Source: a virus. From it: 41,515 bases of DNA. Where the stretch lies: IMG/VR virus record IMGVR_UViG_3300037488_001432, positions 1 to 41,515 of that record; one strand, 5' to 3'. Under the pieces are notes generated by a model. It did not search any database, had not been told where the DNA came from, and was given only the letters and a program-made list of their open reading frames with translations. Positions 1 to 17,344 of the stretch are shown here, piece by piece; the stretch's first letter is position 1, and every line of letters starts with the position of its first letter. Made by a program: the position numbers and the translations under genes.

Positions 1-133
1 CCCGACATGGGCCAGTGCATCCATTGCTCTCCCGGCCGCAGGTCTGGCGGCGCTGGTGGGATTGCAAGCCTTGCCGCTTCGTCGAGTTTGCGCCATGCCT
101 TGAGGCCCTGCTTGCGTGCTTCGGCCAGCCGAT
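1..133. repeat. Terminal direct repeat, left copy
   Basis: Positions 1-133 recur at 41383-41515. The first 126 bases match exactly and one mismatch follows (A at 127, G at 41509). A leftward reading frame continues in register from the start of the window into the end, so the molecule is circular or circularly permuted. The repeat is most simply an assembly overlap; a short true terminal redundancy is possible but less likely for a P22-like headful packager. Confidence 0.9.
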
Positions 134-164
134 CTTCCTTCAGAGTCCTTCGGTATCGCCTCAT
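1..164 (-). CDS. Junction-spanning hypothetical protein, N-terminal part
   Basis: The ATG at 164-162 overlaps the TGA of the upstream gene (161-163) by four bases, which suggests translational coupling. Reading continues off the left end of the window and resumes at 41382, ending at 41151, for about 131 residues in total. The N-terminus is rich in Arg and Lys (starts MRRYRRTLKEDRLAEARK) and is followed by a Pro-rich stretch and a WMHWPMSG segment. I do not recognise the family. It is the last gene of the leftward operon, it has no attC after it, and its 3' end converges on the tailspike gene. Confidence 0.8.
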   Translation of the reverse strand, partial: MRRYRRTLKEDRLAEARKQGLKAWRKLDEAARLAIPPAPPDLRPGEQWMHWPMS

Positions 165-700
165 TTCGTGGCGCCTACTTTCTGATGTTGTGATATTGCC
201 TCGTTGGGCGTCACTACATCGCGGCCGATGCCGTTCAGCAACTCCCGCAATTCGTTGATGTACTCGCGCTTGCACCATCCTTCAATCTCGCAGATCGTCA
301 GATCGACCAAGATGTCAGCAAGCAGGCGTTCCTTGAACTTCTGTCTCGCCAGTTCGTTAACCGTCCTGGCTTGGCTGGCGTGAAACACAAAGGCGCCGGG
401 CGCGCTTGGCACCTGCGGTGGCGCTTCGTTGCTGCTGGCGCGGATCGGCTCGTCAAACCTCAGTTGCCCCTGGGGTTGCAGCACGCGCAGCAACGCCCGC
501 TTCCCGCCGCGCAGAACGCTTTTCCCGTCCGTGACGAACGCATGCCCGGCCAGCGGAGAGCCCACAGATGAATCAAGCCTCCACCCTTGCGGCATTTTCT
601 CCAGCAGCAGCCAGCCCCGGTATCGCGGTGCGCCGTGCTGCCCAACTGACGGTTCGAGCGGACCCTCAACAGGCCGGCAAGTTTGTGGCGCTTCGGTCAT
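161..700 (-). CDS. Hypothetical protein with N-terminus encoded by an attC site
   Basis: A 179-residue frame whose first ATG (700-698) lies inside the loop of the attC at 640-742, so about the first 20 residues are read from the recombination site. The middle (RYRGWLLLEKMPQGWRLD, then a Gly/Lys-rich VLRGGKRALLRVL) looks like a compact domain and begins upstream of the next in-frame ATG (595). That supports initiation at or near 700, although no strong ribosome site precedes it. The C-terminus is helical and charged. The stop overlaps the next gene's ATG. I do not recognise a function. It is the outermost gene pair of the left cassette arm. Confidence 0.7.
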   Translation of the reverse strand: MTEAPQTCRPVEGPLEPSVGQHGAPRYRGWLLLEKMPQGWRLDSSVGSPLAGHAFVTDGKSVLRGGKRALLRVLQPQGQLRFDEPIRASSNEAPPQVPSAPGAFVFHASQARTVNELARQKFKERLLADILVDLTICEIEGWCKREYINELRELLNGIGRDVVTPNEAISQHQKVGATK

Positions 701-742
701 GTGTTCGTGGCCTGTTGGGGTCCGCTCAACCTAGCGTTAGGC
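640..742 (-). other. attC: attC site L1 (long, 103 bp, contains a start codon)
   Basis: On the minus strand it runs from R'' GCCTAAC (742-736) to R' GTTGGGC (646-640). The arms AGCGGACCC-CAACAGGCC and GGCCTGTTG-AGGGTCCGCT pair over about 20 bp, and the 3' arm carries an extra unpaired C after GGTT plus one further unpaired base. The stop of the upstream gene (737-739) is inside R''. The loop contains the ATG of the downstream gene. Confidence 0.88.
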
Positions 743-979
743 CGCAGGGCTCACCACCAAGGGCGGGGCCTGCCATCCTTGCTGCACCAACCATTCGTGG
801 TACTGATCCAGTGCCCACAAGCAGCAGTCCGCATCGGTGCCGCTCTCATCCGGTGACAGCGGCCCGAACTGCTCGCGCGCGATGTCTTTGCGCTTAATCA
901 TCGGAGACAGCGGCACAGTGCCAAGTAAGTCAGAAGACCCATCCGCCTTGACGCCAATCAAATTCATTGTTTCTCTCAT
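737..979 (-). CDS. Cassette-encoded hypothetical protein (80 aa)
   Basis: Small acidic protein beginning MRETMNLIGVKADGSSDLL, with a Trp-rich C-terminal third (CCLWALDQYHEWLVQQGW). The start ATG at 979-977 is preceded by a GAGGGAAA ribosome site. The leader between the preceding attC R' and this start (980-1008) is almost identical to the leader of the cassette gene at 5026-5280. The TAA stop is part of the R'' of attC L1. No family recognised. It forms a single-gene cassette between attC L2 and L1. Confidence 0.8.
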   Translation of the reverse strand: MRETMNLIGVKADGSSDLLGTVPLSPMIKRKDIAREQFGPLSPDESGTDADCCLWALDQYHEWLVQQGWQAPPLVVSPAA

Positions 980-1007
980 GCTTTTTCCCTCTAGTTTTCT
1001 GATCCAG

Positions 1008-1068
1008 GCCTAACCAAGCGCTGTAGCCGACGCCCGCAAGCGTGCGCGGCTAACCGCCAACGTTATGC
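1008..1068 (-). other. attC: attC site L2
   Basis: Minus-strand R'' GCATAAC (1068-1062) and R' GTTAGGC (1014-1008), 61 bp. The arms around TAGCCGCGCACGC and GCGTCGGCTA pair with an unpaired A in the 3' arm. It is nearly identical to attC L7 at 4050-4111 and to the truncated site at 5311. The TAG of the upstream gene (1050-1052) lies inside the 5' arm. Confidence 0.88.
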
Positions 1069-1328
1069 CGCTTTTCAGCAGCATAGTCCTCCGCCAATTT
1101 GGCGGCTTCAGGATGGCGCATCCAATGGAGAACCAACCTGTTCAGCGCAACGTCACATGCGGCGCAAATCGGGCGGTAGTTGTTCCCGTCGCTGCAAATC
1201 TGCCACTGGAAGGCGGCAGGCTCTGAGCATCGCACGCATCGCAGGCGGCGCACGCCTGACTCTGTGTAAGGCTCGCGGCGGCGGCGCTGCCAGTAACCTG
1301 AAACAAGGTCTTTCAGTTGCGCTTTCAT
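1050..1328 (-). CDS. Small Cys-rich, possibly zinc-binding protein
   Basis: A 92-residue protein starting MKAQLKDLVSGYWQRRR. The ATG at 1328 overlaps the TGA of the preceding gene by four bases (ATGA). It has two CxxC pairs (CVRC and CAAC) with another Cys between, and a segment CAACDVALNRLVLHWMRHPEA that resembles the C-terminal half of small phage HNH or zinc-finger proteins. I cannot see a full HNH catalytic His-Asn-His set, so nuclease activity is only a possibility. The reading frame ends inside attC L2, so its last few residues (HNVGG) are encoded by the recombination site. It shares a two-gene cassette with the gene at 1325-1567. Confidence 0.72.
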   Translation of the reverse strand: MKAQLKDLVSGYWQRRRREPYTESGVRRLRCVRCSEPAAFQWQICSDGNNYRPICAACDVALNRLVLHWMRHPEAAKLAEDYAAEKRHNVGG

Positions 1329-1567
1329 TCTGGCTGCCCTTGGGCTGCGCGTTGTTCCGGCCCGTCCAAGTGCCACAGCATGCGGCCCACAAACCAATAA
1401 GCGCCACAGCCGCTGCCCGGCGTCAGGTACGTGCGCGCGTCGGACTGCATCGCGCAAATCAACGCATCTAGGCGCTCCACCTTTTGCTCAAGCTGCCTAA
1501 CCCGCAATTCGACCTGACCCGCCACGGCAGGCAGGCTTTGTGCCTCGGTCTTAATGTCTTTGTCCAT
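1325..1567 (-). CDS. Hypothetical protein starting inside an attC loop (80 aa)
   Basis: The ATG at 1567-1565 sits in the loop of attC L3 behind an AAAGGAAAGAC ribosome site. The first about 25 residues (MDKDIKTEAQSLPAVAGQVE and onward) are read through the 3' arm of the attC. A short coiled-coil-like segment (QLEQKVERLDALICAMQ) follows, then a Gly/Trp-rich tail. The stop overlaps the next gene's start (ATGA at 1325-1328), so the two genes form one operon-like cassette. Function unknown. Confidence 0.75.
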   Translation of the reverse strand: MDKDIKTEAQSLPAVAGQVELRVRQLEQKVERLDALICAMQSDARTYLTPGSGCGAYWFVGRMLWHLDGPEQRAAQGQPE

Positions 1568-1611
1568 GTCTTTCCTTTCGCCGCAGCGGTCAGGTCAATT
1601 TCACGTTAGGC
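1495..1611 (-). other. attC: attC site L3 (long, 117 bp, contains a start codon)
   Basis: Minus-strand R'' GCCTAAC (1611-1605), R' GTTAGGC (1501-1495). The arms AATTGACCTGACCGC and GCGGGTCAGGTCGAATT pair almost perfectly with an unpaired C and A in the 3' arm. The long loop holds a ribosome site and the ATG of the gene at 1325-1567. The TAA of the upstream gene (1606-1608) is in R''. Confidence 0.9.
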
Positions 1612-1860
1612 CTTTTGCGCCGCTGCATACAGCCGCTTCAGGCTGGGGTGGCAGCGCAGCTCGTCTGGCAGGTCGTTCCATGCGGCCACCAGGTCTTCGC
1701 GGCCAGCTTGCATCCGCTCGCGCTCTTCTTTGCGCGCCATCTCGGCAATCGTGGCCGCAAAAATCACGCACGATGTCAGCGTCACATCCTCTTTTCGCTT
1801 CGGGTCTGGCCATTCGAAGAAATGTTCCGCCTCTTCAGTAATTCGCTTTTGGTCAATCAT
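1606..1860 (-). CDS. Cassette-encoded hypothetical protein (84 aa)
   Basis: Starts MIDQKRITEEAEHFFEW. It is highly charged and mostly helical, with an Arg/Glu-rich centre (ARKEERERMQAGRED) and a C-terminal LRCHPSLKRLYAAAQ segment. The ATG at 1860-1858 is preceded by GGAGCGAAAGA, a good ribosome site. The stop codon forms part of R'' of attC L3. The gene fills one cassette between attC L4 and attC L3. It looks like a soluble cytosolic protein; I do not recognise a family. Confidence 0.78.
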   Translation of the reverse strand: MIDQKRITEEAEHFFEWPDPKRKEDVTLTSCVIFAATIAEMARKEERERMQAGREDLVAAWNDLPDELRCHPSLKRLYAAAQKA

Positions 1861-1879
1861 TCTTTCGCTCCGTTTACAG

Positions 1880-1939
1880 GCCTAACCAAGCCCATCAACC
1901 CGCGACTGCTGCGCAGCGGGGTTATGGGCACCGTTAGGG
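1880..1939 (-). other. attC: attC site L4
   Basis: Minus-strand R'' CCCTAAC (1939-1933), R' GTTAGGC (1886-1880), 60 bp. The arms GCCCATAACCCCGCTGC and GCAGTCGCGGGTTGATGGGC pair with unpaired C and A on the 3' arm. It follows the Dam-type methyltransferase stop by four bases. Confidence 0.9.
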
Positions 1940-1943
1940 CACT

Positions 1944-2960
1944 TCAAAACAGCGCCTCCTGCACCGCGCGCTCTGGCGCACAGTGCGGGCTGCACCACAA
2001 AGTTTCCGAGGCGCTGTTCTCCACCGCCTCATCGGTCACTGCATAGCCCTTGCGCGCCGTCCAGGCCCGCAGGTGCCAGCCGTTCGCCAGTAGCGCGTCA
2101 TGCTCGCCAGCATGGCCGCAAAGCACGATCCGCAGCTTCTTGTCCTGTCCGTTGGCTGCGCACCAGGCGCGCACCTTGTCGGCAAGGTCGCCACCCACGC
2201 CGCCAGCCGCGTAGTCCATCGCGCCTTTCGTGTAAGGCGGGTCGAGAAACACCCCAGTCGTGCCGTGCCGTGTCGTCACGCTTTCGGTCAGCACGCGCTG
2301 CCAGTCGCCCACCGCAACCCGCACGCCCCGCGTGCGATCCTGCAGCGCGCCGAACCACTCATAGATGTAGTGCGTGCGGCCCTGGCCGGCATCGCCCAGG
2401 TGCGGCAGTTTCCGGTTCACGCCCCGGCCGGCATCGCCCAGGTGCGGCAGTTGCCGGTTCACGCCCCGGCCGGCATCGCCCAGGTGCGGCAGTTGCCGGC
2501 CGTCCACCAGCTTCTCGCCGTCATGCACCCACGGCCCGGTGCCGCTGCACCAGCCGCTGCCGATCCAGTTGCACGCGCCCCAGCACCACCAGCCCGCAAT
2601 CTTGGCGTCGTAATAGTCTGGGTCGGCGTGCAGCCGTTCCAGCAGGCCAGGCGCATGGCGTACCAGCCACGAGTGCCGCGCAAACAGGTCGGCCTCGTTG
2701 GTGGGCCAGTCGGTGTGCTTTGCCACGTCGGCCGCATCCAGCGACACCGCGCGCCAGAAGTTCGCCACAAAGCCGTCCGCGTCATTGATGGTTTCAACCT
2801 TGCCCACGTTGGGGCGCCCAAGCAGCATTGCCGCCGAGCCCGCGAACGGTTCTACGTAGTTCTCAGGGTCGCCCAGCGCGCCCCACACTGTCTCGCACGC
2901 CAGCGACTTTCCGCCAAAGTACGGGAACGGTGCTGCCAAGGTGCCTGCTACAGATTTCAC
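1944..2960 (-). CDS. Dam-like D12-class DNA adenine N6-methyltransferase
   Basis: Transfers methyl from SAM to adenine in DNA; in phages such enzymes commonly protect the genome from host restriction. Visible motifs: FPYFGGKS near residues 12-19 (SAM-binding motif I of the D12 family) and DPPY near residue 240 (catalytic motif IV). The GTG start at 2960-2958 was chosen because GGAGAACCA precedes it; a longer TTG-started frame would begin inside attC L5. The target-recognition region contains a 14-residue unit (QLPHLGDAGRGVNR) nearly three times in tandem, encoded by a 42-bp repeat. It forms a single-gene cassette between attC L5 and L4. Family call secure; target site unknown. Confidence 0.9.
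   Translation of the reverse strand: MKSVAGTLAAPFPYFGGKSLACETVWGALGDPENYVEPFAGSAAMLLGRPNVGKVETINDADGFVANFWRAVSLDAADVAKHTDWPTNEADLFARHSWLVRHAPGLLERLHADPDYYDAKIAGWWCWGACNWIGSGWCSGTGPWVHDGEKLVDGRQLPHLGDAGRGVNRQLPHLGDAGRGVNRKLPHLGDAGQGRTHYIYEWFGALQDRTRGVRVAVGDWQRVLTESVTTRHGTTGVFLDPPYTKGAMDYAAGGVGGDLADKVRAWCAANGQDKKLRIVLCGHAGEHDALLANGWHLRAWTARKGYAVTDEAVENSASETLWCSPHCAPERAVQEALF
2384..2500. repeat. 42-bp tandem repeat inside the Dam-like gene (about 2.8 copies)
   Basis: Units begin at 2384, 2426 and 2468, each starting GGCCGGCATCGCCCAGGTGC on the plus strand; the third is incomplete. The period is a multiple of three, so copy-number change alters protein length without a frameshift (14 residues per unit). 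Confidence 0.9.
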
Positions 2961-2986
2961 TGGTTCTCCATCTATCGTCGGAAGTG

Positions 2987-3044
2987 CCCTAACACGCAAT
3001 TCGAGGCGACGGCCTACGGCCGCGCCTCAATTGCAACGTTAGGG
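2987..3044 (-). other. attC: attC site L5
   Basis: Minus-strand R'' CCCTAAC (3044-3038), R' GTTAGGG (2993-2987), 58 bp. The arms GCAATTGAGGCGCGGCC and GGCCGTCGCCTCGAATTGC pair perfectly apart from the unpaired C and A in the 3' arm. The last residues of the upstream oxygenase-like gene are encoded in the 5' arm. Confidence 0.92.
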
Positions 3045-3436
3045 CGCACCTGATACGCGCACCCGCGCCATACGCGCTTTGAAATTACGCTGTGCAGCAC
3101 GCTGTCTTTAAACACCACAAAGTCACCTGCCCGCATGCGCTTTGCTTCCGTCCCAACTTGCAAGAACAGTTCCTCAAATCTTGGTAGGTCTACTACCCAG
3201 AACACAGCCGCGTAACGGCGCGGGTATTTGCCAGCGCCTACCCAGTCGTCTGTGTGCGGCTCCACGCAGCGCATGCGCAAGGCAACTCCTGTGGTGGCGT
3301 CATGCCTCCACTTGCTTCCGCAAGGCACGCAGCCAAAGTCCTGCGGCAGCGTCGTTGCAAACGAGTCGTCCGCAATCTCTCGCACCATGCGCCGCTGCGC
3401 TGGCGTCGGGTGTTGTGTTCCGGCCTCAAAAATCAT
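3014..3436 (-). CDS. 2OG-Fe(II) oxygenase-like protein
   Basis: A 140-residue protein starting MIFEAGTQHPTPAQRR. It carries PHTDDW (HxD, His61 and Asp63), a Tyr/Phe/Trp-rich strand (AAVFWVVD), the GDFVVFKDSVLHSV segment with a second His at 115, and a distal Arg (YQVRP). This order fits the HxD...H...R iron and 2-oxoglutarate site of the prolyl-4-hydroxylase/AlkB-like superfamily. The ATG at 3436 follows GGTGAAGAACAC; an upstream TTG at 3472 would start inside attC L6. The C-terminal tail (VAIEARP) is read from attC L5. Substrate unknown. Single-gene cassette. Confidence 0.7.
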   Translation of the reverse strand: MIFEAGTQHPTPAQRRMVREIADDSFATTLPQDFGCVPCGSKWRHDATTGVALRMRCVEPHTDDWVGAGKYPRRYAAVFWVVDLPRFEELFLQVGTEAKRMRAGDFVVFKDSVLHSVISKRVWRGCAYQVRPNVAIEARP

Positions 3437-3454
3437 GTGTTCTTCACCAGTGCG

Positions 3455-3511
3455 CCCTAACTGTCGGTTCAAGCGGACGCCGTGCCGGCGCCGCTTAACC
3501 TGGCGTTAGGC
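3455..3511 (-). other. attC: attC site L6
   Basis: Minus-strand R'' GCCTAAC (3511-3505), R' GTTAGGG (3461-3455), 57 bp. The arms GGTTAAGCGGCGCC and GGCGTCCGCTTGAACC pair with unpaired C and A, the classic attC arrangement. The stop of the upstream gene (3469-3471) lies inside the 3' arm. Confidence 0.92.
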
Positions 3512-3732
3512 GGCATCGGATGAACCGGCTCAAACCAATCAGCGCAATACCAAGTCGTCGGTGTACCGTGCTTGAGCGGCGGCTGAACACGGAACATCAC
3601 ACCGCTTTGGCTGTGCCCATGCCAACGATCACGGTCAACTGCCACAATTTGCACGCGTGCCATTGGCCCGGCGCCGTTGAAGTCGGTCAAAGCCCAATCT
3701 CCAACCGCAAGCTGTCGGCTTTGCAGACCCAT
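3469..3732 (-). CDS. Cassette-encoded hypothetical protein (87 aa)
   Basis: Starts MGLQSRQLAVGDWALTDFNG and has alternating hydrophobic strands (ARVQIVAVDRDRWHG, GVMFRVQPPLKHG) and WYCADWFEPV. This suggests a small beta-barrel fold, like many short phage proteins of unknown role. The ATG at 3732 is preceded by GGGGGAG, and the stop of the upstream gene is three bases away, so both genes form one cassette. The last about 16 residues are encoded by attC L6, with the TGA deep in its 3' arm. Confidence 0.78.
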   Translation of the reverse strand: MGLQSRQLAVGDWALTDFNGAGPMARVQIVAVDRDRWHGHSQSGVMFRVQPPLKHGTPTTWYCADWFEPVHPMPPNARLSGAGTASA

Positions 3733-3735
3733 CGC

Positions 3736-4026
3736 CTACTCCCCCGCCCGCTTCTTCCAACCGGAAGCAAGTAAGGCCAACAGTTCGTTGTCATCGCCAC
3801 CGCGCAAAAGCTGATCGTGCGCGTTGGTGCAAATCTGGCGCAAGCGCTCAAGCTCATCAAGCGCCACGCCAAGTGCAGCAACACACCCGGACGGCGCGCA
3901 ACCTTGCATGCTTGCGTGCCACCAATTCGCGGCTTCAGCAGGTGTGCGCGTGTCCAGCCCGTAGTTGATGCGCCAGCATTCAATCGTTGATTGCTGAATC
4001 GGCTCAATGTCGTGCGTTTCGCTCAT
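3736..4026 (-). CDS. Cassette-encoded hypothetical protein (96 aa)
   Basis: Starts MSETHDIEPIQQSTIECWRI. It is a helical, soluble protein with the segments TPAEAANWWHASMQGC, a DELERLRQICTNAHDQLLRGG helix and DNELLALLASGWKKR. The ATG at 4026-4024 follows GAAATGAAAGGTAAAC (ribosome site AAAGG). It is the first gene of a two-gene cassette bounded by attC L7 upstream and L6 downstream. No function recognised. Confidence 0.78.
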   Translation of the reverse strand: MSETHDIEPIQQSTIECWRINYGLDTRTPAEAANWWHASMQGCAPSGCVAALGVALDELERLRQICTNAHDQLLRGGDDNELLALLASGWKKRAGE

Positions 4027-4049
4027 GTTTACCTTTCATTTCAAATGCC

Positions 4050-4111
4050 GCCTAACCGGGCCGCTGTAGCCGACGCCCGCAAGCGTGCGCGGCTAACCGC
4101 CAACGTTATGG
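4050..4111 (-). other. attC: attC site L7
   Basis: Minus-strand R'' CCATAAC (4111-4105), R' GTTAGGC (4056-4050), 62 bp. The central 48 bases match attC L2 almost exactly (GCTGTAGCCGACGCCCGCAA and the following arm, plus strand). The TAA stop of the gene at 4106-4285 is inside R''. Confidence 0.88.
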
Positions 4112-4285
4112 CGCAGCGCGCTTTGCCGCACGTTCGCGGCGTCGAGCCAGCTTTGCAGCGTGCTCACGGATCGCTTCGACATCATCCGGGTGCGCCCAAA
4201 GGTTCGTCACCGGCACCAGGCCGGCAGCGATGCGCCGGGCTTTCAGATCGGCCTGGCGCTCTGCGTTGGTCTTGGCGGGACTCAT
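4106..4285 (-). CDS. Small basic RHH-like protein, family A (59 aa)
   Basis: Starts MSPAKTNAERQADLKARR, then a short strand-helix-helix-like segment (VTNLWAHPDDVEAIREHAAK) and a Lys/Arg-rich tail. Two paralogues occur in this genome (6542-6706 and 12961-13161), each the downstream gene of a promoter-led module. The layout suggests a small DNA-binding protein of the ribbon-helix-helix type; this is inference from shape. The ATG at 4285 overlaps the stop of the previous gene (ATGA). The stop lies in R'' of attC L7. Confidence 0.72.
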   Translation of the reverse strand: MSPAKTNAERQADLKARRIAAGLVPVTNLWAHPDDVEAIREHAAKLARRRERAAKRAAP

Positions 4286-4689
4286 ACGTTGTCGTAGGCT
4301 GTGCGCCGAATTTCCCAAAGCACATCCGGCACAGCCGGCCCGGTGCTGGCGTCGTGCGCCATGTCGCCAATTTGATGCAGCACTTCACGCAGCCGGTCGG
4401 CGTCACTGTTGGGCGGTGGTCCCACGTACAGCGCAACAGTCGCAATATCCGGGTTGTGGTGCGGCTCAGAGAACAACATGGTGATGCGGCCGTTCGGCAA
4501 CTGCCACCCATACGCCACAGGATCGGCGGGTGCTTCTCCGTGCGGCTCAGCGGCAACAGCCATCGCAGCTTTGTAGCCGGCTTCAAAGGCAGCTTCTATC
4601 CAATGCTCCGTTGTCTTGATAGCGCCTGTTTCTTTGGCCTCCGCGCGCCAAAGTTCCATTTCAAAAGCCGCTCGGCTTGCGGCTTCCAT
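4282..4689 (-). CDS. Hypothetical protein, module family B (135 aa)
   Basis: Starts MEAASRAAFEMELWRAEAKE. The C-terminal 40 residues (from DADRLREVLHQIGDMAHDAS to the end) are almost identical to those of the right-arm paralogue at 16202-16489, while the N-terminal parts differ. This implies a shared C-terminal domain with swapped N-termini. A central AYGWQLPNGRITMLFSEP motif looks like a short beta domain. Its ATG (4689) overlaps the upstream TAA by one base (TAATG). It is the middle gene of a three-gene cassette. Function unknown. Confidence 0.78.
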   Translation of the reverse strand: MEAASRAAFEMELWRAEAKETGAIKTTEHWIEAAFEAGYKAAMAVAAEPHGEAPADPVAYGWQLPNGRITMLFSEPHHNPDIATVALYVGPPPNSDADRLREVLHQIGDMAHDASTGPAVPDVLWEIRRTAYDNV

Positions 4690-4871
4690 TACGCGGCCTC
4701 GATGATCATGCGGTCGGTGCCATCGGGGTTGTAGCCCTTCAGGATGGTGATGGCAAACAGGTCGGCAAAGTCTTCGTGCAAGGCGCCGGTCTTGTAGGCT
4801 GCGGCAAAAACATCGAAGAACGTTGAGATGTCGGCGGCGGTGTTGTTGACGTAATGGATGCTGGTGTTCAT
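4689..4871 (-). CDS. Conserved 60-aa protein, module family C (left copy)
   Basis: Starts MNTSIHYVNNTAADISTFFD and ends DRMIIEAA. It differs from the right-arm copy (16020-16202) at only two residues, while most of the roughly 13 nucleotide differences between them are silent. This indicates purifying selection on the protein. The ATG at 4871 has a strong GGAGAGCAAC ribosome site. A sigma70-like promoter with a palindrome lies 31-59 bases upstream. First gene of a three-gene cassette. Family not recognised. Confidence 0.85.
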   Translation of the reverse strand: MNTSIHYVNNTAADISTFFDVFAAAYKTGALHEDFADLFAITILKGYNPDGTDRMIIEAA

Positions 4872-4901
4872 GTTGCTCTCCGTTTCGGTTGGTGTGCTTT
4901 C

Positions 4902-4930
4902 ATTGTGCGCCACCGTTAGCACTAACGCAA
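4902..4930 (-). promoter_or_regulatory. Cassette promoter with CGTTAG-N2-CTAACG operator
   Basis: -35 TTGCGT (4930-4925), 17-bp spacer, -10 CACAAT (4907-4902). The inverted repeat CGTTAG-TG-CTAACG (4927-4914) overlaps the -35 and spacer. It is the same design as the promoter at 7093-7121. It lies inside a cassette, between attC L8 and the family C gene. Confidence 0.65.
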
Positions 4931-4968
4931 GCACTATTTGCACGCACACATCGCGTCCCCCACCAGCG

Positions 4969-5024
4969 CCATAACCCACGCTCAAACGGACGCCGTACCG
5001 GCGCCGTTTAGCTCAGCGTTAGGC
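4969..5024 (-). other. attC: attC site L8
   Basis: Minus-strand R'' GCCTAAC (5024-5018), R' GTTATGG (4975-4969), 56 bp. The arms GCTAAACGGCGCC and GGCGTCCGTTTGAGC pair with unpaired bases as in attC L6, to which it is related. Confidence 0.9.
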
Positions 5025-5025
5025 C

Positions 5026-5280
5026 CTAGCGGCTTGCCAGCGTGTAGCTAAGCCAAAGTGGCCAGAAAATGGCTTTCGGTGCGCCGTCTGTTACCGATGG
5101 CCCGCCAATTGGGCACCTGCGCAAAGCCTCCAAGTCGTGCGCCCATTCGGCTCGGCACTGAGCCTGATACTCGGCTCGTGCTTTTTCGCTTTGAACAGTG
5201 GCGGGGCCAAAGCAAACAACGATCATTGCCAGGTATCCGGAAATCGAGGCCATCGCTACTTTGTACGCCATGTCGCTCAT
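5026..5280 (-). CDS. Cassette-encoded small membrane protein (84 aa)
   Basis: Starts MSDMAYKVAMASISGYLAMI and has one strong hydrophobic stretch (about residues 7-26: ASISGYLAMIVVCFGPATV). A soluble helix with Lys/Glu/Cys follows (SEKARAEYQAQCRAEWAHD), then a second short hydrophobic segment near the C-terminus (IFWPLWLSYTLA). The ATG at 5280 follows AAAGGAGTATTTGAG, an excellent ribosome site shared with the cassette gene at 13945. Its leader back to the attC R' matches that of the gene at 737-979. The TAG sits one base before R'' of attC L8. Role unknown; an inner-membrane accessory protein is likely. Confidence 0.8.
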   Translation of the reverse strand: MSDMAYKVAMASISGYLAMIVVCFGPATVQSEKARAEYQAQCRAEWAHDLEALRRCPIGGPSVTDGAPKAIFWPLWLSYTLASR

Positions 5281-5310
5281 CTCAAATACTCCTTTAGTTT
5301 TCTGATCCAG

Positions 5311-5346
5311 GCCTAACCGGTCCGCTGTAGCCGACGCCCCCAAGCG
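5311..5346 (-). other. attC: Truncated attC (left-arm inner boundary)
   Basis: R' GTTAGGC (5317-5311) followed by the 3' arm GCTGTAGCCGACGCCC (plus strand), as in attC L2 and L7. The sequence diverges at about 5350, with no 5' arm and no R''. It marks the junction between the leftward core operon and the cassette array. Confidence 0.75.
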
Positions 5347-5430
5347 TGCCGACCCATTGGCATCCATCACATGTTTCGAGCAGACCCGCAACAGCGGGGT
5401 GCGTTGGTTCGGTCGTTGGTTTTTGCTCGG

Positions 5431-12459: not shown

Positions 12460-12565
12460 CAGAAAACCCGGCGAGCTAAGCGACGGTGAGCTGTTGGCGC
12501 TGAGCCGCGCCGCGTTCGCGGTGGAATATGACCCCGCCGAGGTTCGAGCGCAGAAACGCGCCTAA
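12452..12565 (+). CDS. Cassette-encoded mini-protein (37 aa)
   Basis: Starts MTDRKPGELSDGELLALSRA and ends VRAQKRA; acidic then basic, probably one helix pair. The ATG at 12452 follows AGGAGCCAACGC, a good ribosome site. The TAA is part of R'' of attC R1. Position, ribosome site and stop-in-attC support it despite its length. Function unknown. Confidence 0.65.
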   Translation: MTDRKPGELSDGELLALSRAAFAVEYDPAEVRAQKRA

Positions 12566-12622
12566 CGTCGAAGTTAAGGCCGCTTGCTGTAAGCAAGTCG
12601 GGCCTTGAACGCCCCGTTAGGC
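12560..12622 (+). other. attC: attC site R1
   Basis: R'' GCCTAAC (12560-12566), R' GTTAGGC (12616-12622), 63 bp. The arms GTTAAGGCCGCTTGC and GCAAGTCGGGCCTTGAAC pair with unpaired bases in the 3' arm. Confidence 0.9.
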
Positions 12623-12660
12623 GGCTTCAATTTGATGCTGAAAATAGTTTTAAATAGCGC

Positions 12661-12689
12661 TTGCGTTACCGGAAACGTGGCGCTACACT
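12661..12689 (+). promoter_or_regulatory. Cassette promoter
   Basis: -35 TTGCGT (12661-12666), 17-bp spacer, -10 TACACT (12684-12689). The spacer begins TACCGGAAACGTGGCGC, which resembles the spacer of the promoter at 4902-4930 (GGTGGCGC next to the -10) but with a decayed palindrome (CGTTaccggaAACG). Confidence 0.65.
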
Positions 12690-12718
12690 GAAGGCACTGA
12701 AGCAACCGGAGAAGCTAA

Positions 12719-12964
12719 ATGACAATGGCCCTTGGAACCGTTTTGCCCACCGCCGAAATCTTGGCGCGCGGCGACGCACACGCCGCCTGGCTTGCAGGCC
12801 AGCAGCACAAAGCCGGCGCCGCCCTCAACGTTTGCGCAGCGCGCACTGTTGGCGGCGAAACCCGCTACTACAAAACATCGACGAAATACGCGGTAATTTC
12901 CAGAGGCATGCAGGTTCGGTGGTTTGAAGTCCGCGCCGATGGTGATTACCCTGTTCGCGGGTGA
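12719..12964 (+). CDS. Cassette-encoded hypothetical protein (81 aa)
   Basis: Starts MTMALGTVLPTAEILARGDA. It is an Ala-rich helical half (HAAWLAGQQHKAGAALNVCA) followed by a beta-like half (TRYYKTSTKYAVISRGMQVR, WFEVRADGDYPVRG). The ATG at 12719 follows CCGGAGAAGCTAA and lies 30 bases after a cassette promoter. It overlaps the next gene (GTGA). First gene of a two-gene, promoter-led cassette. Unknown function. Confidence 0.8.
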   Translation: MTMALGTVLPTAEILARGDAHAAWLAGQQHKAGAALNVCAARTVGGETRYYKTSTKYAVISRGMQVRWFEVRADGDYPVRG

Positions 12965-13161
12965 GCCCAGCCAAGACGACAAGCGAGCGCGTGCAGGCTA
13001 TGCGCTCTGCCCGCAATTCTCTGGGCTTGAAGCGCCTAGAGCTTTACGCGCACCCGGAAGACTGGCCGGCAATCAAAGCACTGGCCGAGAAGTTGCAAAG
13101 AAAGCGGGCGCGCGCCTTGCCGCAAAACAAGACGCCTAACGTTCGAGCTAAGCGCGTTTGA
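12961..13161 (+). CDS. Small basic RHH-like protein, family A (GTG start)
   Basis: A 66-residue paralogue of 4106-4285 and 6542-6706, beginning (V/M)SPAKTTSERVQAMRSARN, then LKRLELYAHPEDWPAIKALA and a Lys/Arg-rich tail. The GTG at 12961 overlaps the upstream TGA. The last about 10 residues (PNVRAKRV and neighbours) are encoded by attC R2, with the TGA in its 5' arm. Its recurrent position as the last gene of a promoter-led module suggests regulation of that module; this is inference. Confidence 0.75.
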   Translation: MSPAKTTSERVQAMRSARNSLGLKRLELYAHPEDWPAIKALAEKLQRKRARALPQNKTPNVRAKRV

Positions 13162-13203
13162 CACGGTACTCCGTGGCAAATCCGCTTGAGCGAGGGGTTA
13201 GGC
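13134..13203 (+). other. attC: attC site R2
   Basis: R'' GCCTAAC (13134-13140), R' GTTAGGC (13197-13203), 70 bp. The arms CGAGCTAAGCGCGTTTG and CAAATCCGCTTGAGCG pair with unpaired C and A. An inner hairpin CACGGTACTCCGTG closes the loop. Confidence 0.9.
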
Positions 13204-13228
13204 CCGCTGTTCGCAACCGAGAAAGACT

Positions 13229-13489
13229 ATGAGCACCTGGAAAGAACTGCTTGAAGACGCTCTGAAGGAGCGCGGCGAGGAACTGGCCGACCTTGAAGCC
13301 AACACGCTGACGGACGCCGACATGGCGAAGGAGTTCGACTCTGGCTATGGCAGCACTGAGGGCCTGACGTTCACGGCCTGGAGCGCAAAGACCGTTTACT
13401 TTCCTATCTGCTATGACGGCGCCGAGTGGGTTGGAAGCGTTTCTCGCCACCCAAACGGCAAGCCGACAGAACACCAGGGCGGCGGCTGA
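13229..13489 (+). CDS. Cassette-encoded acidic protein (86 aa)
   Basis: Starts MSTWKELLEDALKERGEELA. An acidic N-terminal helix is followed by a beta-rich half (GLTFTAWSAKTVYFPICYDG, AEWVGSVSRHP). This pattern resembles small acidic phage proteins. The ribosome site is GAGAAAGACT before the ATG at 13229. The stop is seven bases before R'' of attC R3. A DNA-mimic or anti-host role is conceivable but not evidenced. Confidence 0.78.
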   Translation: MSTWKELLEDALKERGEELADLEANTLTDADMAKEFDSGYGSTEGLTFTAWSAKTVYFPICYDGAEWVGSVSRHPNGKPTEHQGGG

Positions 13490-13496
13490 ATTGCGG

Positions 13497-13583
13497 GCCT
13501 AACGTGGAGTTCAGCGGCGTGCCCGCTGGACATTCGAGTAACCACCCTGCTGGCGGCGCGTCCGCTGGAACGCAGGGTTAGGC
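13497..13583 (+). other. attC: attC site R3
   Basis: R'' GCCTAAC (13497-13503), R' GTTAGGC (13577-13583), 87 bp. The arms GTTCAGCGGCGTGCC and GGCGCGTCCGCTGGAAC pair with unpaired C and A in the 3' arm. Confidence 0.9.
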
Positions 13584-13612
13584 GTCACTGGCGCCGAAGC
13601 GGAAAGACGGTG

Positions 13613-13828
13613 ATGAACCAAGACCCGGATTCGTGGGAAGCCAACGCGCAGCACATGCTGGAACGATGCCCGTACACCGTATGGCAGCGCCCAGGCGGCG
13701 GACCCGTGGACCTGAAGTCCACGCTGGTGGTGACGTTCCAGGCTATGCAAATGCGCCTTGAAGGGCATCCGATGTATGCGCGCAAGCTGACGCCAGAACC
13801 CGAGACGTTTGCGGGCCTGATTCCGTGA
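13613..13828 (+). CDS. Cassette-encoded hypothetical protein (71 aa)
   Basis: Starts MNQDPDSWEANAQHMLERCP, then YTVWQRPGGGPVDLKSTLVV and a Met-rich helix. The ATG at 13613 follows GGAAAGACGGTG; a GTG three bases earlier is an alternative. The stop is one base before R'' of attC R4. No family recognised. Confidence 0.75.
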   Translation: MNQDPDSWEANAQHMLERCPYTVWQRPGGGPVDLKSTLVVTFQAMQMRLEGHPMYARKLTPEPETFAGLIP

Positions 13829-13829
13829 C

Positions 13830-13916
13830 GCCTAACGTTTTGGTAACCGGCGCCCGCGCGCTGAAGTAATAGACCGGCTGGACGCTGCGGGGCGTCCGGT
13901 TGACCTAATGTTCGGC
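13830..13916 (+). other. attC: attC site R4
   Basis: R'' GCCTAAC (13830-13836), R' GTTCGGC (13910-13916), 87 bp. The arms GGTAACCGGCGCCC and GGGGCGTCCGGTTGACC pair with unpaired C and A. R' deviates at one base from GTTAGGC. Confidence 0.87.
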
Positions 13917-13944
13917 TGTAGCCGGAGATAAAGGAGTGTTTGAG

Positions 13945-14151
13945 ATGAAGATCAACGTTATCGGGATGATCCTGAACAACGCCGGCCGCAAGTGCTTTGA
14001 CGGCGCGGTACTGGATGACAACGGCAACCCATTGCCGGCCGCTGATTCGCTGCACGCGATGATCATGGAATATGCCAAGGTGATCAACGGCGGCACATCC
14101 GATTGGGTGGCGACATCGCGCGAAGTGCTCAAGTCTGACCCTGCCCCATGA
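13945..14151 (+). CDS. Cassette-encoded hypothetical protein (68 aa)
   Basis: Starts MKINVIGMILNNAGRKCFDG and continues AVLDDNGNPLPAADSLHAMI, then a helix and SREVLKSDPAP. The ATG at 13945 follows AAAGGAGTGTTTGAG, the same ribosome-site leader seen before the membrane-protein cassette at 5026-5280. The stop is next to R'' of attC R5. Function unknown. Confidence 0.78.
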   Translation: MKINVIGMILNNAGRKCFDGAVLDDNGNPLPAADSLHAMIMEYAKVINGGTSDWVATSREVLKSDPAP

Positions 14152-14152
14152 A

Positions 14153-14249
14153 GCCGAACGTTCGAGCTAACCTGGACCCAACGGCGTGACCATGCTGGAC
14201 AACCACACTGCTGATGCCGTTGGGGCTCAGGTTGAGCGAGGGGTTGGGC
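14153..14249 (+). other. attC: attC site R5
   Basis: R'' GCCGAAC (14153-14159), R' GTTGGGC (14243-14249), 97 bp. The arms GCTAACCTGGACCCAACGGC and GCCGTTGGGGCTCAGGTTGA (continuing GC) pair over about 20 bp with unpaired C and A. Confidence 0.88.
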
Positions 14250-14282
14250 GGCTGGTGAACGAAGCTACGAAAGGAGCCCGCT

Positions 14283-14447
14283 GTGGCTGAAACAATGACA
14301 ACGGCAATGCTATGGACGATGGCCCTGTTGGGCGCCTGGAACGGCGTAAACATGATCGGCCGCCTCTACTACCGGGCGCCGTGGTGGCCCTATGCGTGGC
14401 ACGTTTTCAGCGGGGCATGGGCCGCGTTCATTCTGTGGGCACGCTGA
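14283..14447 (+). CDS. Cassette-encoded membrane mini-protein (54 aa, GTG start)
   Basis: GTG at 14283 with AAAGGAG eight bases upstream. Encodes (V/M)AETMTTAMLWTMALLGAW, NGVNMIGRLYYRAPWWPYAW and HVFSGAWAAFILWAR. Two hydrophobic Trp-rich stretches suggest a small inner-membrane protein with two spans. The stop is four bases before R'' of attC R6. No other frame fits this cassette, which supports the call. Function unknown. Confidence 0.72.
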   Translation: MAETMTTAMLWTMALLGAWNGVNMIGRLYYRAPWWPYAWHVFSGAWAAFILWAR

Positions 14448-14451
14448 AGCC

Positions 14452-14509
14452 GCCCAACGTGGCCGCTAACCGGCAGCCGTAGGCTGTCCGGTTGAGTGGC
14501 GGGTTATGC
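14452..14509 (+). other. attC: attC site R6
   Basis: R'' GCCCAAC (14452-14458), R' GTTATGC (14503-14509), 58 bp. The arms GCCGCTAACCGGCAGCC and GGCTGTCCGGTTGAGTGGC pair with unpaired C and A. Confidence 0.9.
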
Positions 14510-14535
14510 GTGGTTAACGAAGCGAAGGAAAGACG

Positions 14536-14769
14536 ATGAGCGACTTTTGCAGAACCGCCGAGCAGAGAAAGGCCGCGAAGGAACACCGCTGCACCTATTG
14601 CGGCGAAGGCATCCCGAAGGGCGAGGTGTACCAAGAGCAAACGGGCGTTTGGGACGGTGCGGCATTCCGCAACAAGTTTCACGCCGAGTGCTTCCAGGCG
14701 CTGTGCGATGAGGGCGAAGGCGAGTTCACGCCGTACAGCGAAACACGGCCCGAGCGGGCTGACGCCTAA
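14536..14769 (+). CDS. Cassette-encoded zinc-finger-like protein (77 aa)
   Basis: Starts MSDFCRTAEQRKAAKEHRCT. CTYCGEGIPKGEVYQEQTGV provides a CxxC, and FRNKFHAECFQALC provides HxxC with a further Cys, a treble-clef or LIM-like zinc site. The C-terminus is acidic. The ribosome site is GAAGGAAAGACG. The TAA lies in R'' of attC R7. A single-zinc adaptor or DNA-binding role is likely; the target is unknown. Confidence 0.78.
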   Translation: MSDFCRTAEQRKAAKEHRCTYCGEGIPKGEVYQEQTGVWDGAAFRNKFHAECFQALCDEGEGEFTPYSETRPERADA

Positions 14770-14850
14770 CGTTGTATTGAGCGGCGCGCGCACCGGCCTG
14801 GACGGAGTGTGACCATGCCGTTGCGCGTCCGCTCGAATACGGGGTTAGGC
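14764..14850 (+). other. attC: attC site R7
   Basis: R'' GCCTAAC (14764-14770), R' GTTAGGC (14844-14850), 87 bp. The arms GTATTGAGCGGCGCG and CGCGTCCGCTCGAATAC pair perfectly except for the unpaired C and A. Confidence 0.93.
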
Positions 14851-14869
14851 CCCACATGGAGAAGCAAGC

Positions 14870-15097
14870 ATGAAAGACAGTGATTTGATTGCAGAAGTGG
14901 CCCGCGTGTGGGTTGACGGCGGCGGCGATGCTGAAGGCATTGCATGGAGCGCCAGCAGCCTACAGGTCGCGGTCATGGTGGAGATTGACCGCCGCAGGGA
15001 GGATGCCGAAGCGCTTGCATCGCTGCGAGCAGTCCGCGAACAGTGGGAGGCGGAGAGACACGCCCGCCTGACAGCCAATGGTGGCCTTGGGGCCTAA
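14870..15097 (+). CDS. Cassette-encoded hypothetical protein (75 aa)
   Basis: Starts MKDSDLIAEVARVWVDGGGD, then AWSASSLQVAVMVEIDRRRE and a long charged helix (EALASLRAVREQWEAERHAR). The ATG at 14870 follows TGGAGAAGCAAGC. The TAA lies in R'' of attC R8. Soluble, helical, unknown function. Confidence 0.78.
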   Translation: MKDSDLIAEVARVWVDGGGDAEGIAWSASSLQVAVMVEIDRRREDAEALASLRAVREQWEAERHARLTANGGLGA

Positions 15098-15160
15098 CGG
15101 TAGCGTTGAGCCGGGCACAACGGTACGCCGTTGTGACTCGGCTCGAACGCGGGGTTAGGT
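15092..15160 (+). other. attC: attC site R8
   Basis: R'' GCCTAAC (15092-15098), R' GTTAGGT (15154-15160), 69 bp. The arms GCGTTGAGCCGGGCACAAC and GTTGTGACTCGGCTCGAACGC pair with unpaired C and A; loop GGTACGCC. Positions 15093-15159 are identical to attC R9. Confidence 0.93.
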
Positions 15161-15191
15161 TTCACTGGTTCCGAAGCGAGAAGGACGACGA

Positions 15192-15842
15192 ATGGCAGAG
15201 AAAGTAGTGATCGGGAACGCGGAACTGTGGCACGGGGACTGCCGCGATGTGCTGCCTCTGCTGCCTGCGTTTGACTTGGTGCTGACGGACCCGCCGTATG
15301 GGGTGCTGATGAACGGAAACCCAGGGCGCCGCGCGAAGCTGACCGAACAGATTGCCGGCGATGCTGTCGCGCCGGACGTAGCCTGGATGGCGGACCACAA
15401 GGCGATTGTCTGGGGCGGCAACAACTTCGGCTTGCCGCGCTCGACGGGCTGGCTGGTGTGGGACAAGTGCCACCCCGATGAATCGCAGCACTCGCAGGCA
15501 GAGCTGGCTTGGACGAACGTAGTGCGGACGGTGCGGCACTACCGCGAGGCTTACCACGGGTTCATGCGCCAGCGCGACGGCTGGTTCCACCCGACACAGA
15601 AGCCGCCTGGCTTGATGCGCTGGTGCATCGGGCTGACGGATGCAGCGTGCGTTTTTGATCCTTACATGGGGTCAGGCACAGCCGGAATAGCGGCGATGGA
15701 GACAGGACGCCGGTTCATCGGCGTGGAGATCCATCGCCCGTATTTCGACATCGCCTGTCGGCGCATCGAACAAGCGCAGGCGCAAGGCCAACTGATACAG
15801 CCCGAACCCTCGCGCGAATGCGTGCAGGAAGGGCTGTTGTGA
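15192..15842 (+). CDS. DNA N4/N6-methyltransferase (N6_N4_Mtase family)
   Basis: A 216-residue enzyme that methylates the exocyclic amino group of adenine or cytosine in DNA. Catalytic DPPYG is at residues 33-37 and the SAM-binding DPYMGSGTAG begins near residue 156, so the order is DPPY first, then FxGxG-like, as in beta-class enzymes. AIVWGGNNFG and WFHPTQKPPGLMRW are further family signatures. Start ATG 15192 follows AGAAGGACGACGA. The stop is next to attC R9. As a single-gene cassette between two identical attC sites, it looks recently duplicated or shuffled. Target sequence unknown. Confidence 0.93.
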   Translation: MAEKVVIGNAELWHGDCRDVLPLLPAFDLVLTDPPYGVLMNGNPGRRAKLTEQIAGDAVAPDVAWMADHKAIVWGGNNFGLPRSTGWLVWDKCHPDESQHSQAELAWTNVVRTVRHYREAYHGFMRQRDGWFHPTQKPPGLMRWCIGLTDAACVFDPYMGSGTAGIAAMETGRRFIGVEIHRPYFDIACRRIEQAQAQGQLIQPEPSRECVQEGLL

Positions 15843-15843
15843 A

Positions 15844-15912
15844 ACCTAACGGTAGCGTTGAGCCGGGCACAACGGTACGCCGTTGTGACTCGGCTCGAAC
15901 GCGGGGTTAGGG
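15844..15912 (+). other. attC: attC site R9
   Basis: R'' ACCTAAC (15844-15850), R' GTTAGGG (15906-15912), 69 bp. The interior is identical to attC R8; only the outermost base of each core differs. Confidence 0.93.
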
Positions 15913-15958
15913 CGCTGGTGGAGAAACGCGGCTAGGTTTGCGTGTTACAAAATAGTTG

Positions 15959-15986
15959 TTGACGCTGGAGGTTGCTGTGCTACAGT
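15959..15986 (+). promoter_or_regulatory. Cassette promoter (right copy of the three-gene module)
   Basis: -35 TTGACG (15959-15964), 16-bp spacer, -10 TACAGT (15981-15986). The surrounding leader (GCGCTGGTGG after the attC R', CGGAGAGCA before the ATG) matches the left-arm module, but the CGTTAG palindrome is absent here. Confidence 0.7.
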
Positions 15987-16019
15987 AACGACATCGCAAC
16001 ACACCAAACGGAGAGCACC

Positions 16020-16202
16020 ATGAACACCAACATCCACTACGTCAACAACACCGCCGCCGACATCTCCAAGTTCTTCGATGTCTTCGCCGCCGCCTACAAG
16101 ACCGGCGCCCTGCACGAAGACTTCGCTGACCTGTTCGCCATCACCATCCTGAAGGGCTACAACCCCGACGGCACCGACCGCATGATCATCGAGGCCGCTT
16201 AA
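16020..16202 (+). CDS. Conserved 60-aa protein, module family C (right copy)
   Basis: Starts MNTNIHYVNNTAADISKFFD; 58 of 60 residues match the left-arm copy (4689-4871). The two DNA copies are inverted relative to each other and differ at about 13 of 183 bases, mostly in third positions. The ATG at 16020 has a CGGAGAGCACC ribosome site. It overlaps the next gene by one base (TAATG). Function unknown, but its conservation and own promoter suggest a useful product. Confidence 0.87.
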   Translation: MNTNIHYVNNTAADISKFFDVFAAAYKTGALHEDFADLFAITILKGYNPDGTDRMIIEAA

Positions 16203-16489
16203 TGAAAGCCGCAGAAGTGCGCGAAGATGGTGCTGTTCCGGTGGCGTGGATCACCAATGACGAGTATTCGTCAGGATCGTACTCACCGCCATACCGAGAA
16301 AAACGGCTTTCATGGCATAGGCCAGCCAATAACGGCACACCTCTATATACCGCCGCACTAACCGACGACGCTGACAGACTGCGTGAAGTTTTGCGCCGCA
16401 TTGGCGACATGGCGCACGACGCCAGCACCGGGCCAGCCGTGCCGGATGTGCTTTGGGAAATCAGGCGCATGGCCTACGACGAAGTATGA
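16202..16489 (+). CDS. Hypothetical protein, module family B (95 aa)
   Basis: Starts MKAAEVREDGAVPVAWITND. Its last 40 residues (DADRLREVLRRIGDMAHDAS and on) nearly match the left-arm paralogue 4282-4689, whereas the first half is different and shorter. PVAWITNDEYSSGSYSPPYR resembles short domains of unknown function found in other phage mini-genes. Coupled upstream (TAATG) and downstream (ATGA). Unknown function. Confidence 0.8.
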   Translation: MKAAEVREDGAVPVAWITNDEYSSGSYSPPYREKRLSWHRPANNGTPLYTAALTDDADRLREVLRRIGDMAHDASTGPAVPDVLWEIRRMAYDEV

Positions 16490-16671
16490 GCACCGACAAG
16501 AGCAAAGGCGGACGCCCGCCAGCCCCGCCCGGCCAGCGCCGGGTGAACGTGCCGCTGCGCCTGCCTGAATGGCTGGTGCAGTGGATGGCAGAGCAGCCGG
16601 AGACGCCTGCGGAGTTGATAGAAGCCGCACTGCTGAAGGCGCACAAGCTGCGCCCGCCGCGTGCGCCCTAA
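16486..16671 (+). CDS. Ribbon-helix-helix-like mini-protein (61 aa)
   Basis: Starts MSTDKSKGGRPPAPPGQRRV. NVPLRLPEWLVQWMAEQPET and PAELIEAALLKAHK fit a strand followed by two helices, as in CopG/Arc-type DNA-binding proteins. It occupies the position of the family A gene in the left-arm module, so the third slot is always a small basic protein. The TAA lies in R'' of attC R10. Regulatory role inferred. Confidence 0.72.
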   Translation: MSTDKSKGGRPPAPPGQRRVNVPLRLPEWLVQWMAEQPETPAELIEAALLKAHKLRPPRAP

Positions 16672-16767
16672 CGATAGCTTCAGCGGGCCTGAACGGCCCG
16701 CGAGAAAGGTGACACATGAGTGAAACTTTGGAGGCCGTTCGGGCTCCGTTGCAAGCGCCAGTTAGGC
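16666..16767 (+). other. attC: attC site R10 (long, 102 bp, contains a start codon)
   Basis: R'' CCCTAAC (16666-16672), R' GTTAGGC (16761-16767). The arms GCTTCAGCGGGCCTGAACGG and CCGTTCGGGCTCCGTTGC (continuing AAGC) pair over about 22 bp with two mismatches and unpaired G and A on the 3' arm. The loop holds AAAGGTGACAC and the ATG at 16716. Confidence 0.9.
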
Positions 16768-17048
16768 ATCCCGCCACAAAGCGCGAGATGGTGCTTTACC
16801 ACGCTACGACACCCAAGAAAGTGCAGCACTACCACGCAAGCGGCAGGATCATTGCACCGGTGCGCGGCTTCACGAGCCTACAGGCGGCGATGGCATGGGC
16901 ATGCAAAACAGGGCGCAGTGTGGTGCTGGCGGTGCAAGGCAAGGACTGCCACAAGTTGCCCGACCACCACAACCAGTTCGGCGAGGCGTGGTGGGTGGAT
17001 CACGATGTTTCGGCGTGGAAGTGCGTATTCTCGCCGAAGGATGCCTAA
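16716..17048 (+). CDS. Hypothetical protein starting inside an attC loop (110 aa)
   Basis: The ATG at 16716 follows AAAGGTGACAC, both within the loop of attC R10. Residues 1-17 (MSETLEAVRAPLQAPVR) are encoded by the attC 3' arm and R'. The remainder is KREMVLYHATTPKKVQHYHA, SGRIIAPVRGFTSLQAAMAW and a Trp-rich end (FGEAWWVDHDVSAWKCVF). YHATTP plus the downstream strands recall small ADP-ribosyltransferase-like or RNA 2'-phosphotransferase-like folds, but I cannot confirm this. Last gene of the right array; its TAA lies in a lone R''. Confidence 0.75.
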   Translation: MSETLEAVRAPLQAPVRHPATKREMVLYHATTPKKVQHYHASGRIIAPVRGFTSLQAAMAWACKTGRSVVLAVQGKDCHKLPDHHNQFGEAWWVDHDVSAWKCVFSPKDA

Positions 17049-17049
17049 C
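17043..17049 (+). other. attC: Unpaired R'' core (right-arm outer boundary)
   Basis: GCCTAAC at 17043-17049 overlaps the stop of the last cassette gene exactly as in the complete sites. No complementary 3' arm or R' follows in the next 200 bases. Confidence 0.55.
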
Positions 17050-17344
17050 AAGGCAATATCACAACCTTGAAAAGTAGCCGCTAAAAAATGAGGCAAGCAA
17101 TGGCCTAATAAAACCAAAGGCCAAGCACTAAAAACACCTAATGGCTTACGTAGTGGCGTTTCTAAGTGGTTGATTTACAAGGCGATAGTAAAAAGCTATC
17201 GGGCCGATAGGAAAAATCAATCAAGCGCGCAGCTTGACACGTGGCACCATACAAAAATGGCTGTTTCTTCAGGCTTTGCCTTGCGCAACAACCGACAATC
17301 GGGGCTAACTCTCGCCCCGATCCCCTCTCTCAAGGTTTTGGTGA
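17050..17344. promoter_or_regulatory. Late control region (gene-free)
   Basis: This 295-base AT-richer gap between the cassette array and the late genes holds a promoter with CGATAG repeats (17174-17210). It also holds a TTGACACGTGGCAC motif (17234-17247) and a hairpin ATCGGGGC...GCCCCGAT (about 17298-17322) without a T tract. No convincing coding frame is present. Confidence 0.7.
17174..17210 (+). promoter_or_regulatory. Candidate late promoter with CGATAG/CTATCG operator
   Basis: -35 TTTACA (17174-17179), 17-bp spacer, -10 TATCGG (17197-17202). CGATAG (17183-17188), CTATCG (17196-17201) and another CGATAG (17205-17210) form overlapping inverted repeats across the spacer and -10. The scaffold-gene promoter at 21802 has the same element. 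Confidence 0.55.

Follow-up and report, generated by a model that had tools for sequence, protein, structure and literature searches.

In the attI1 site of class 1 integrons, ORF-11 and ORF-18 (Hanau-Bercot 2002, in PMC8876359) provide an SD sequence, an ATG and a reading frame across the crossover point that aid translation of the incoming cassette, as seems to be the case at the phage sites described here. However, they are located in attI, serve the first cassette only, normally stop at the TAG of R' and work by reinitiation, whereas the phage loop starts sit in attC, avoid the TAG phase and would form the N-terminus of the protein itself. The phage sites also resemble short ORFs located in attC (Jacquier 2009, in PMC8876359, section 3.2), where initiation inside the site overcomes the hairpin's block on translation of the next cassette; these encode a separate leader peptide, while in the phage class the ORF runs in frame into the next gene, and does so at many sites. 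Read-through of an attC into the next cassette with N-terminal fusion is also shared with gcuF1-blaOXA-28 (Hocquet 2012, PMC3375312), for which the fusion was shown experimentally and was lost upon cassette excision; that is a single case, with a start that belongs to the upstream cassette gene, not to an attC loop, and with a fusion that harms function. Arrays of attCs together with IntI were described in tailed phages as phage CALINs and integrons (Qi 2023, PMC9892861), and phage attCs recombined with attI1 in a conjugation assay; the abstract and relevant section of that study report neither start signals in attC loops nor N-terminal exchange. In the open-access literature searched, no description was found of attC loops systematically bearing the next gene's own start, which is weak evidence since most subscription papers lay outside the search.

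The R10 site and the cassette arrays of the window

The window analysed (G000) covers an entire virus record of 41,515 bases, in which profile matches revealed a P22-like portal together with a terminase. Small ORFs flanked by attCs form two arrays in it (Table 1), with 12 attCs detected by a relaxed pattern in addition to R10 and others. No TIGR02249 match, and hence no integron integrase, was obtained in the record; with at least two attCs, portal and terminase, it meets the criterion of a CALIN in a phage, and its array would thus need an enzyme in trans. A search of Rfam gave no match. The two arrays share cassettes that are 79-90% identical (4678-4904, minus strand, and 15987-16213, plus strand; 4232-4404, minus, and 16367-16539, plus) and have the same 3' array boundary in inverted orientation (158-212, minus; 17040-17094, plus), as if one array had been copied from the other, which can only be offered as a possibility. 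In addition, the attC sites at 15092-15160 and 15844-15912, identical over 67 nt, flank a DNA methyltransferase cassette, and three tandem 42-nt copies (2379-2504; 86-95% identical) lie within a D12-type methyltransferase ORF of the minus array.

Table 1. Positions of the arrays, attC sites and reading frames in the window
Feature	Positions	Strand	Remarks
Minus-strand array	about 1-5400	-	attC-flanked small ORFs
179-aa ORF from loop of attC 640..742	161..700	-	through R', MTEAPQTCRPVEGPLEPSVG joined to QHGAP...
Third loop-start attC	640..742	-	weak SD
80-aa ORF from loop of attC 1495..1611	1325..1567	-	through R', MDKDIKTEAQSLPAVAGQVELRVR joined to QLEQ...
Second loop-start attC	1495..1611	-	AAAGGAAAGAC ATG in loop
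Plus-strand array	12560-17050	+	attC-flanked small ORFs
attC	14153..14249	+	loop ATG 14192 opens 32-codon ORF through R'; read by hand
attC	14764..14850	+	loop ATG 14815, GGAG; 22-codon ORF
Upstream cassette gene	16486..16671	+	TAA stop inside R'' of R10
attC R10, 102 nt	16666..16767	+	R'' CCCTAAC, 5' arm, long apical loop, 3' arm, R' GTTAGGC
SD-like AAAGGTGA in R10 loop	16705..16712	+	anti-SD duplex -4.4 kcal/mol
ORF from R10 loop, 110 aa	16716..17048	+	reads through R'; residues 1-17 attC-coded
R' box of R10	16761..16767	+	GTTAGGC, read in frame GTT AGG C
Core domain, 86 codons	16788..17045	+	most homologues outside cassettes start here or nearby; Tpt1/ADP-ribosyltransferase-like fold suggested

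The sequence-only reading had proposed an attC at the R10 position with an ATG at 16716 between its arms, and its coordinates proved exact. Pairing of the two arms gives a long, imperfect stem in which the 3' arm carries an extra base, and the stem score (20.8) was above the maximum (17.3) of 2000 shuffles in which the R boxes were held fixed. When compared to the attC consensus (RYYYAAC / GTTRRRY), R' is an exact match and the R''-like box (16666-16672), which contains the TAA of the upstream gene, is off at the first base only. Folded as ssDNA, the bottom strand reached -20.5 kcal/mol (z -1.9), and the site meets the attC criterion of an imperfect hairpin with an extrahelical base on that strand. 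These analyses show that R10 is a real attC; its recombination by IntI is inferred, without an assay. The cassette boundary, with the crossover after G16761, is likewise an inference, based on the G^TTRRRY rule of integrons and on the presence of the head TTAGGCATCCCGCC behind other attCs. R10 is less typical than most members of the class described below, its L' box deviates from the strict consensus, and its gene is followed by an R''-like box without a full attC.

An SD-like AAAGG (16705-16709) and the ATG (16716-16718) lie between the R10 arms, and the predicted RNA fold leaves the ATG entirely unpaired and the SD unpaired in part. The ORF occupies 52 nt of the attC (17 codons and one base), in accordance with the earlier claim that the 3' arm and R' encode its first 17 residues, and extends 93 codons beyond R'; it does not meet the criterion of an ORF-11-type leader, i.e., a short ORF ending at or before the start of the next gene. 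The SD/anti-SD duplex was -4.4 kcal/mol at this ATG compared to -0.1 at the in-frame ATG 16788 (residue 25). The R10 SD is only moderate; the upstream starts of the homologous loci L001, L003 and L392 gave -6.5, -7.1 and -8.5 kcal/mol, respectively, and the tested internal ATGs, from L001 and L003, gave -0.1 to -0.2. Initiation at 16716 would yield a product with the N-terminus SETLEAVRAPLQAPVR.

The structure model of the R10 ORF had a pLDDT of about 50 for residues 1-24 and about 96 for residues 25-110. The attC-encoded tail is thus predicted to be disordered relative to the core, and a change of tail is probably tolerated. For the core, a small conserved protein of phages, there is no Pfam or PHROG family, and neither Pfam nor PHROGs gave a match for the R10 ORF. 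The majority of homologues outside cassettes have their start at or close to the core methionine (residue 25), so the core is an independent domain with an added tail; L005, which has no attC upstream, keeps TKREM and starts upstream of the residue-25 ATG with a strong SD (MSETLTKREML). A Foldseek search with the core returned a weak match (best E 0.016), and comparison with VIA gave a Z of 8.2 and an rmsd of 2.6 over 78 aligned residues, so that a resemblance to Tpt1/ADP-ribosyltransferase folds is conceivable on the basis of the predicted model and no more than suggestive.

Loop starts in long phage attCs

A degenerate long-loop attC pattern retrieved 112 viral stretches with 125 distinct sites (strict set), 83 of which carry an ATG with an SD in the loop; 81 of these starts read through R' and 72 run on for at least 40 codons. 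The antisense strand gave 9, 6 and 4, respectively, and shuffled loops averaged 20, 12 and 9, with at most 12 fused ORFs compared to the 72 observed. The contigs share cassettes and the counts are not independent, yet clustering preserved the contrast between strands (54/89 sense and 6/89 antisense in the non-redundant set at 80% identity). A relaxed search revealed 261 attCs on 104 viral contigs, falling into two length classes. With a simple SD criterion (an ATG and an SD of at least 4 nt in the loop), loop starts were found in 113 of 181 long attCs in sense orientation compared to 14 of 181 in antisense (Fisher 1e-29), and in 1 of 78 short attCs. Nearly all of the 113 (110) read through R', 101 of them for at least 40 further codons. 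Phase 1, which would hit the TAG in R', was almost absent (2/115), and the loop phase matched the downstream frame in 73 cases, while 2000 permutations reached at most 61. Around the start, the sequence approximates AGAGGAG and then ATGA, and the second residues (T/S/N) resemble generic translation starts. A TAA lies within R'' at 48 of 100 loop-start sites, the stop being mostly 35-55 nt before the loop ATG, and the arrays are mixed. This comparative sequence evidence shows that loop starts recur beyond chance in long phage attCs, and because they do so in most of these sites with a matched reading phase, the arrangement at R10, whose N-terminal fusion or truncation had been left as "by design or accident", looks selected rather than accidental. 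A further rule, that the phase of a cassette's own attC equals that of its own head, was not supported (14 same, 9 different).

The stretch from R' to the first in-frame ATG had a codon log-odds of +0.33 bits per codon in the loop frame and of -0.27 and -0.36 in the other two frames, and true 5' UTRs or leaders after short attCs had -0.19. This codon bias shows that, across the class, coding sequence is already under way at R'. Few cassettes that follow loop-start attCs (14 of 103) have an own ATG with an SD within 60 nt of R'; for cassettes behind other long attCs the count was 46 of 75, and for those behind short attCs it was 50 of 72.

Regarding the carriers, 29 of 37 records tested matched at least one of P22 portal, Terminase_6N, phrog_9 or phrog_2 terminase, or phrog_5616 tail fibre (hand tally), and the phage-marker records represent different packaging families. 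TIGR02249 integrases were found in 3 of 43 phage records (G019, G034 and G033; loci L359-L361), in which the gene lies downstream of the cassette array and shares its strand, an arrangement that differs from the divergent one usual in integrons. Loop starts were rarer in bacterial genomes (at least 16 of 148 long sites, several from Methylococcaceae MAGs), and strict phage specificity was ruled out by fused loop starts at no fewer than 9 of 119 bacterial loci. Five Methylococcaceae MAG contigs (L250, L268, L274, L310, L319) carry near-uniform attCs with a loop of roughly AAGGAGCCAGA ATG AACACGCC.

Cassette heads behind different attCs

The earlier reading had also claimed that recombination at R' would switch the N-terminus of the protein, and had called for homologues of 16716-17048 with different N-termini next to other attCs; such homologues were found. 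A 15-base pattern around R' and the cassette head retrieved 115 stretches, nearly all of them chance matches in unrelated genes, and only those encoding the core were used. The head TTAGGCATCCCGCC...KREM/RRM-LYHATT was detected in phage contigs behind three upstream sequences outside the window (L001/L064, L002/L003/L039 and L392), namely two full attCs and one degenerate attC-like site. The N-terminus and head are, respectively, MSETLEAVRAPLQAPVR and HPATKREMVLYH in the window, MNEQTQPAVAGQVERSVR and HPAEARRMTLYH in L001, MHGDTLLDVATMPDAVHGQLDRDVR and HPATKREMLLYH in L002/L003, and MNQSNEGEALVKRTVR and LYHATT in L392, where the join is shorter and the upstream site is the degenerate one. In all head homologues, the upstream start is in frame 0, and each gives a different start and N-terminus.

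Swapped N-termini were found in eight families, the R10 core family and seven more, including the GPRGTYGCAC family behind several different attCs and the PRAAFEAWIS family behind two. Among homologous heads behind different attCs, with fusion not required, 11 had a matched loop start, 1 was in the wrong phase and 6 were without; since these six stand behind attCs that have no SD start, not all heads depend on a loop start. A count of same-phase pairs among fused ORFs was dropped as circular, since homologous peptides imply the same phase, and the unconditional test was used instead. Natural exchange at an R10-type site is inferred from one cassette standing behind different attCs. The proposed switch is thus supported by comparison, while recombination and translation at R10 itself are inferred only, and the claim is further refined: the new N-terminus would come from the attC of the incoming cassette, not from its gene.

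Proposed explanation and alternatives

We consider it likely that R10 belongs to a class of long attCs, common in phage arrays, in which the apical loop carries the SD and the start for the next cassette. The anatomy of the class, its recurrence, the phase match, the coding bias from R' and the same heads behind different attCs are shown; initiation in the loop, expression and exchange by an integron integrase are inferred and not measured, the evidence being all comparative, with no transcript, ribosome-profiling or peptide data behind it. Against it also speak the moderate SD and the deviating L' box of R10, the non-cassette homologues that mostly start at or near residue 25, the six heads behind attCs lacking an SD start, the mixed arrays, the lack of an integron integrase in the record and the absence of a full attC after the R10 gene. 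In this explanation, the attC hairpin in the mRNA would present the start signal in its variable terminal loop, and ribosomes, perhaps those stopping at the R'' TAA about 40-50 nt upstream, would start there and translate the 3' arm, R' and then a cassette gene that lacks a usable start of its own. The folded bottom strand is the one that recombines, and different loop sequences are expected to be tolerated, which would leave the loop free to hold a start signal. After a cassette rearrangement at R', the attC newly placed ahead of a gene would supply that gene's start together with its first 15-25 residues, which are probably disordered. Such cassettes would in effect be circularly permuted genes, as a free circle would join the start in its own attC to its own gene.

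An unlikely alternative is that the loop ORFs act as leader peptides that couple translation, like ORF-11 of attI1, whose ribosomes melt the hairpin and restart after R', the fused N-terminus being incidental. Short ORFs in attC have been described as termination-reinitiation leaders (PMC8876359), and two loop ORFs of the window finish at the start of the next gene: that of 14192-14290 has a TGA (14288-14290) overlapping the next gene, with its GTG start at 14283, and that of 14815-14883 ends just past the ATG at 14870. Against this, most loop ORFs (101/113) stay in the frame of the gene for 40 codons or more beyond R', the coding bias starts directly after R', few cassettes (14/103) have an own ATG with an SD, and R10 has no SD at residue 25.

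It is also doubtful that N-terminal exchange is itself the selected function, with recombination re-tailing effector proteins as a diversity generator. The repeated natural swaps in eight families and the phage-encoded IntI in 3 of 43 records speak for it; however, these short and polar tails are probably disordered, with half of each determined by the conserved 3' arm, and their second residues look like those of generic starts.

That R10 alone is a chance overlap, with translation from residue 25 and an unused loop ATG, would fit the start of most non-cassette homologues and the predicted disorder of the tail, but this possibility, which the earlier reading had named as its refutation, is unlikely given the SD at 16716 and none at 16788 (as in the other cassette copies tested), the codon bias from R', the upstream start of L005 without an attC and the class statistics (113/181 compared to 14/181).

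On the preferred explanation of a start supplied by the loop, a bolder reading, less likely than not, may be entertained, in which circularly permuted phage cassettes keep the start and tail of each such gene in the attC of its neighbour, and shuffling by phage or host IntI re-tails the proteins in a manner resembling exon shuffling. The attC is usually viewed as a recombination site that hinders translation of the next cassette, whereas here its hairpin appears to supply the start. If true, this would explain how inserted genes are expressed in promoter-poor phage arrays and why a start seems to be missing from many phage cassette genes; the annotated starts of such genes would then be wrong or context-dependent, and their N-termini would vary with the order of the array.
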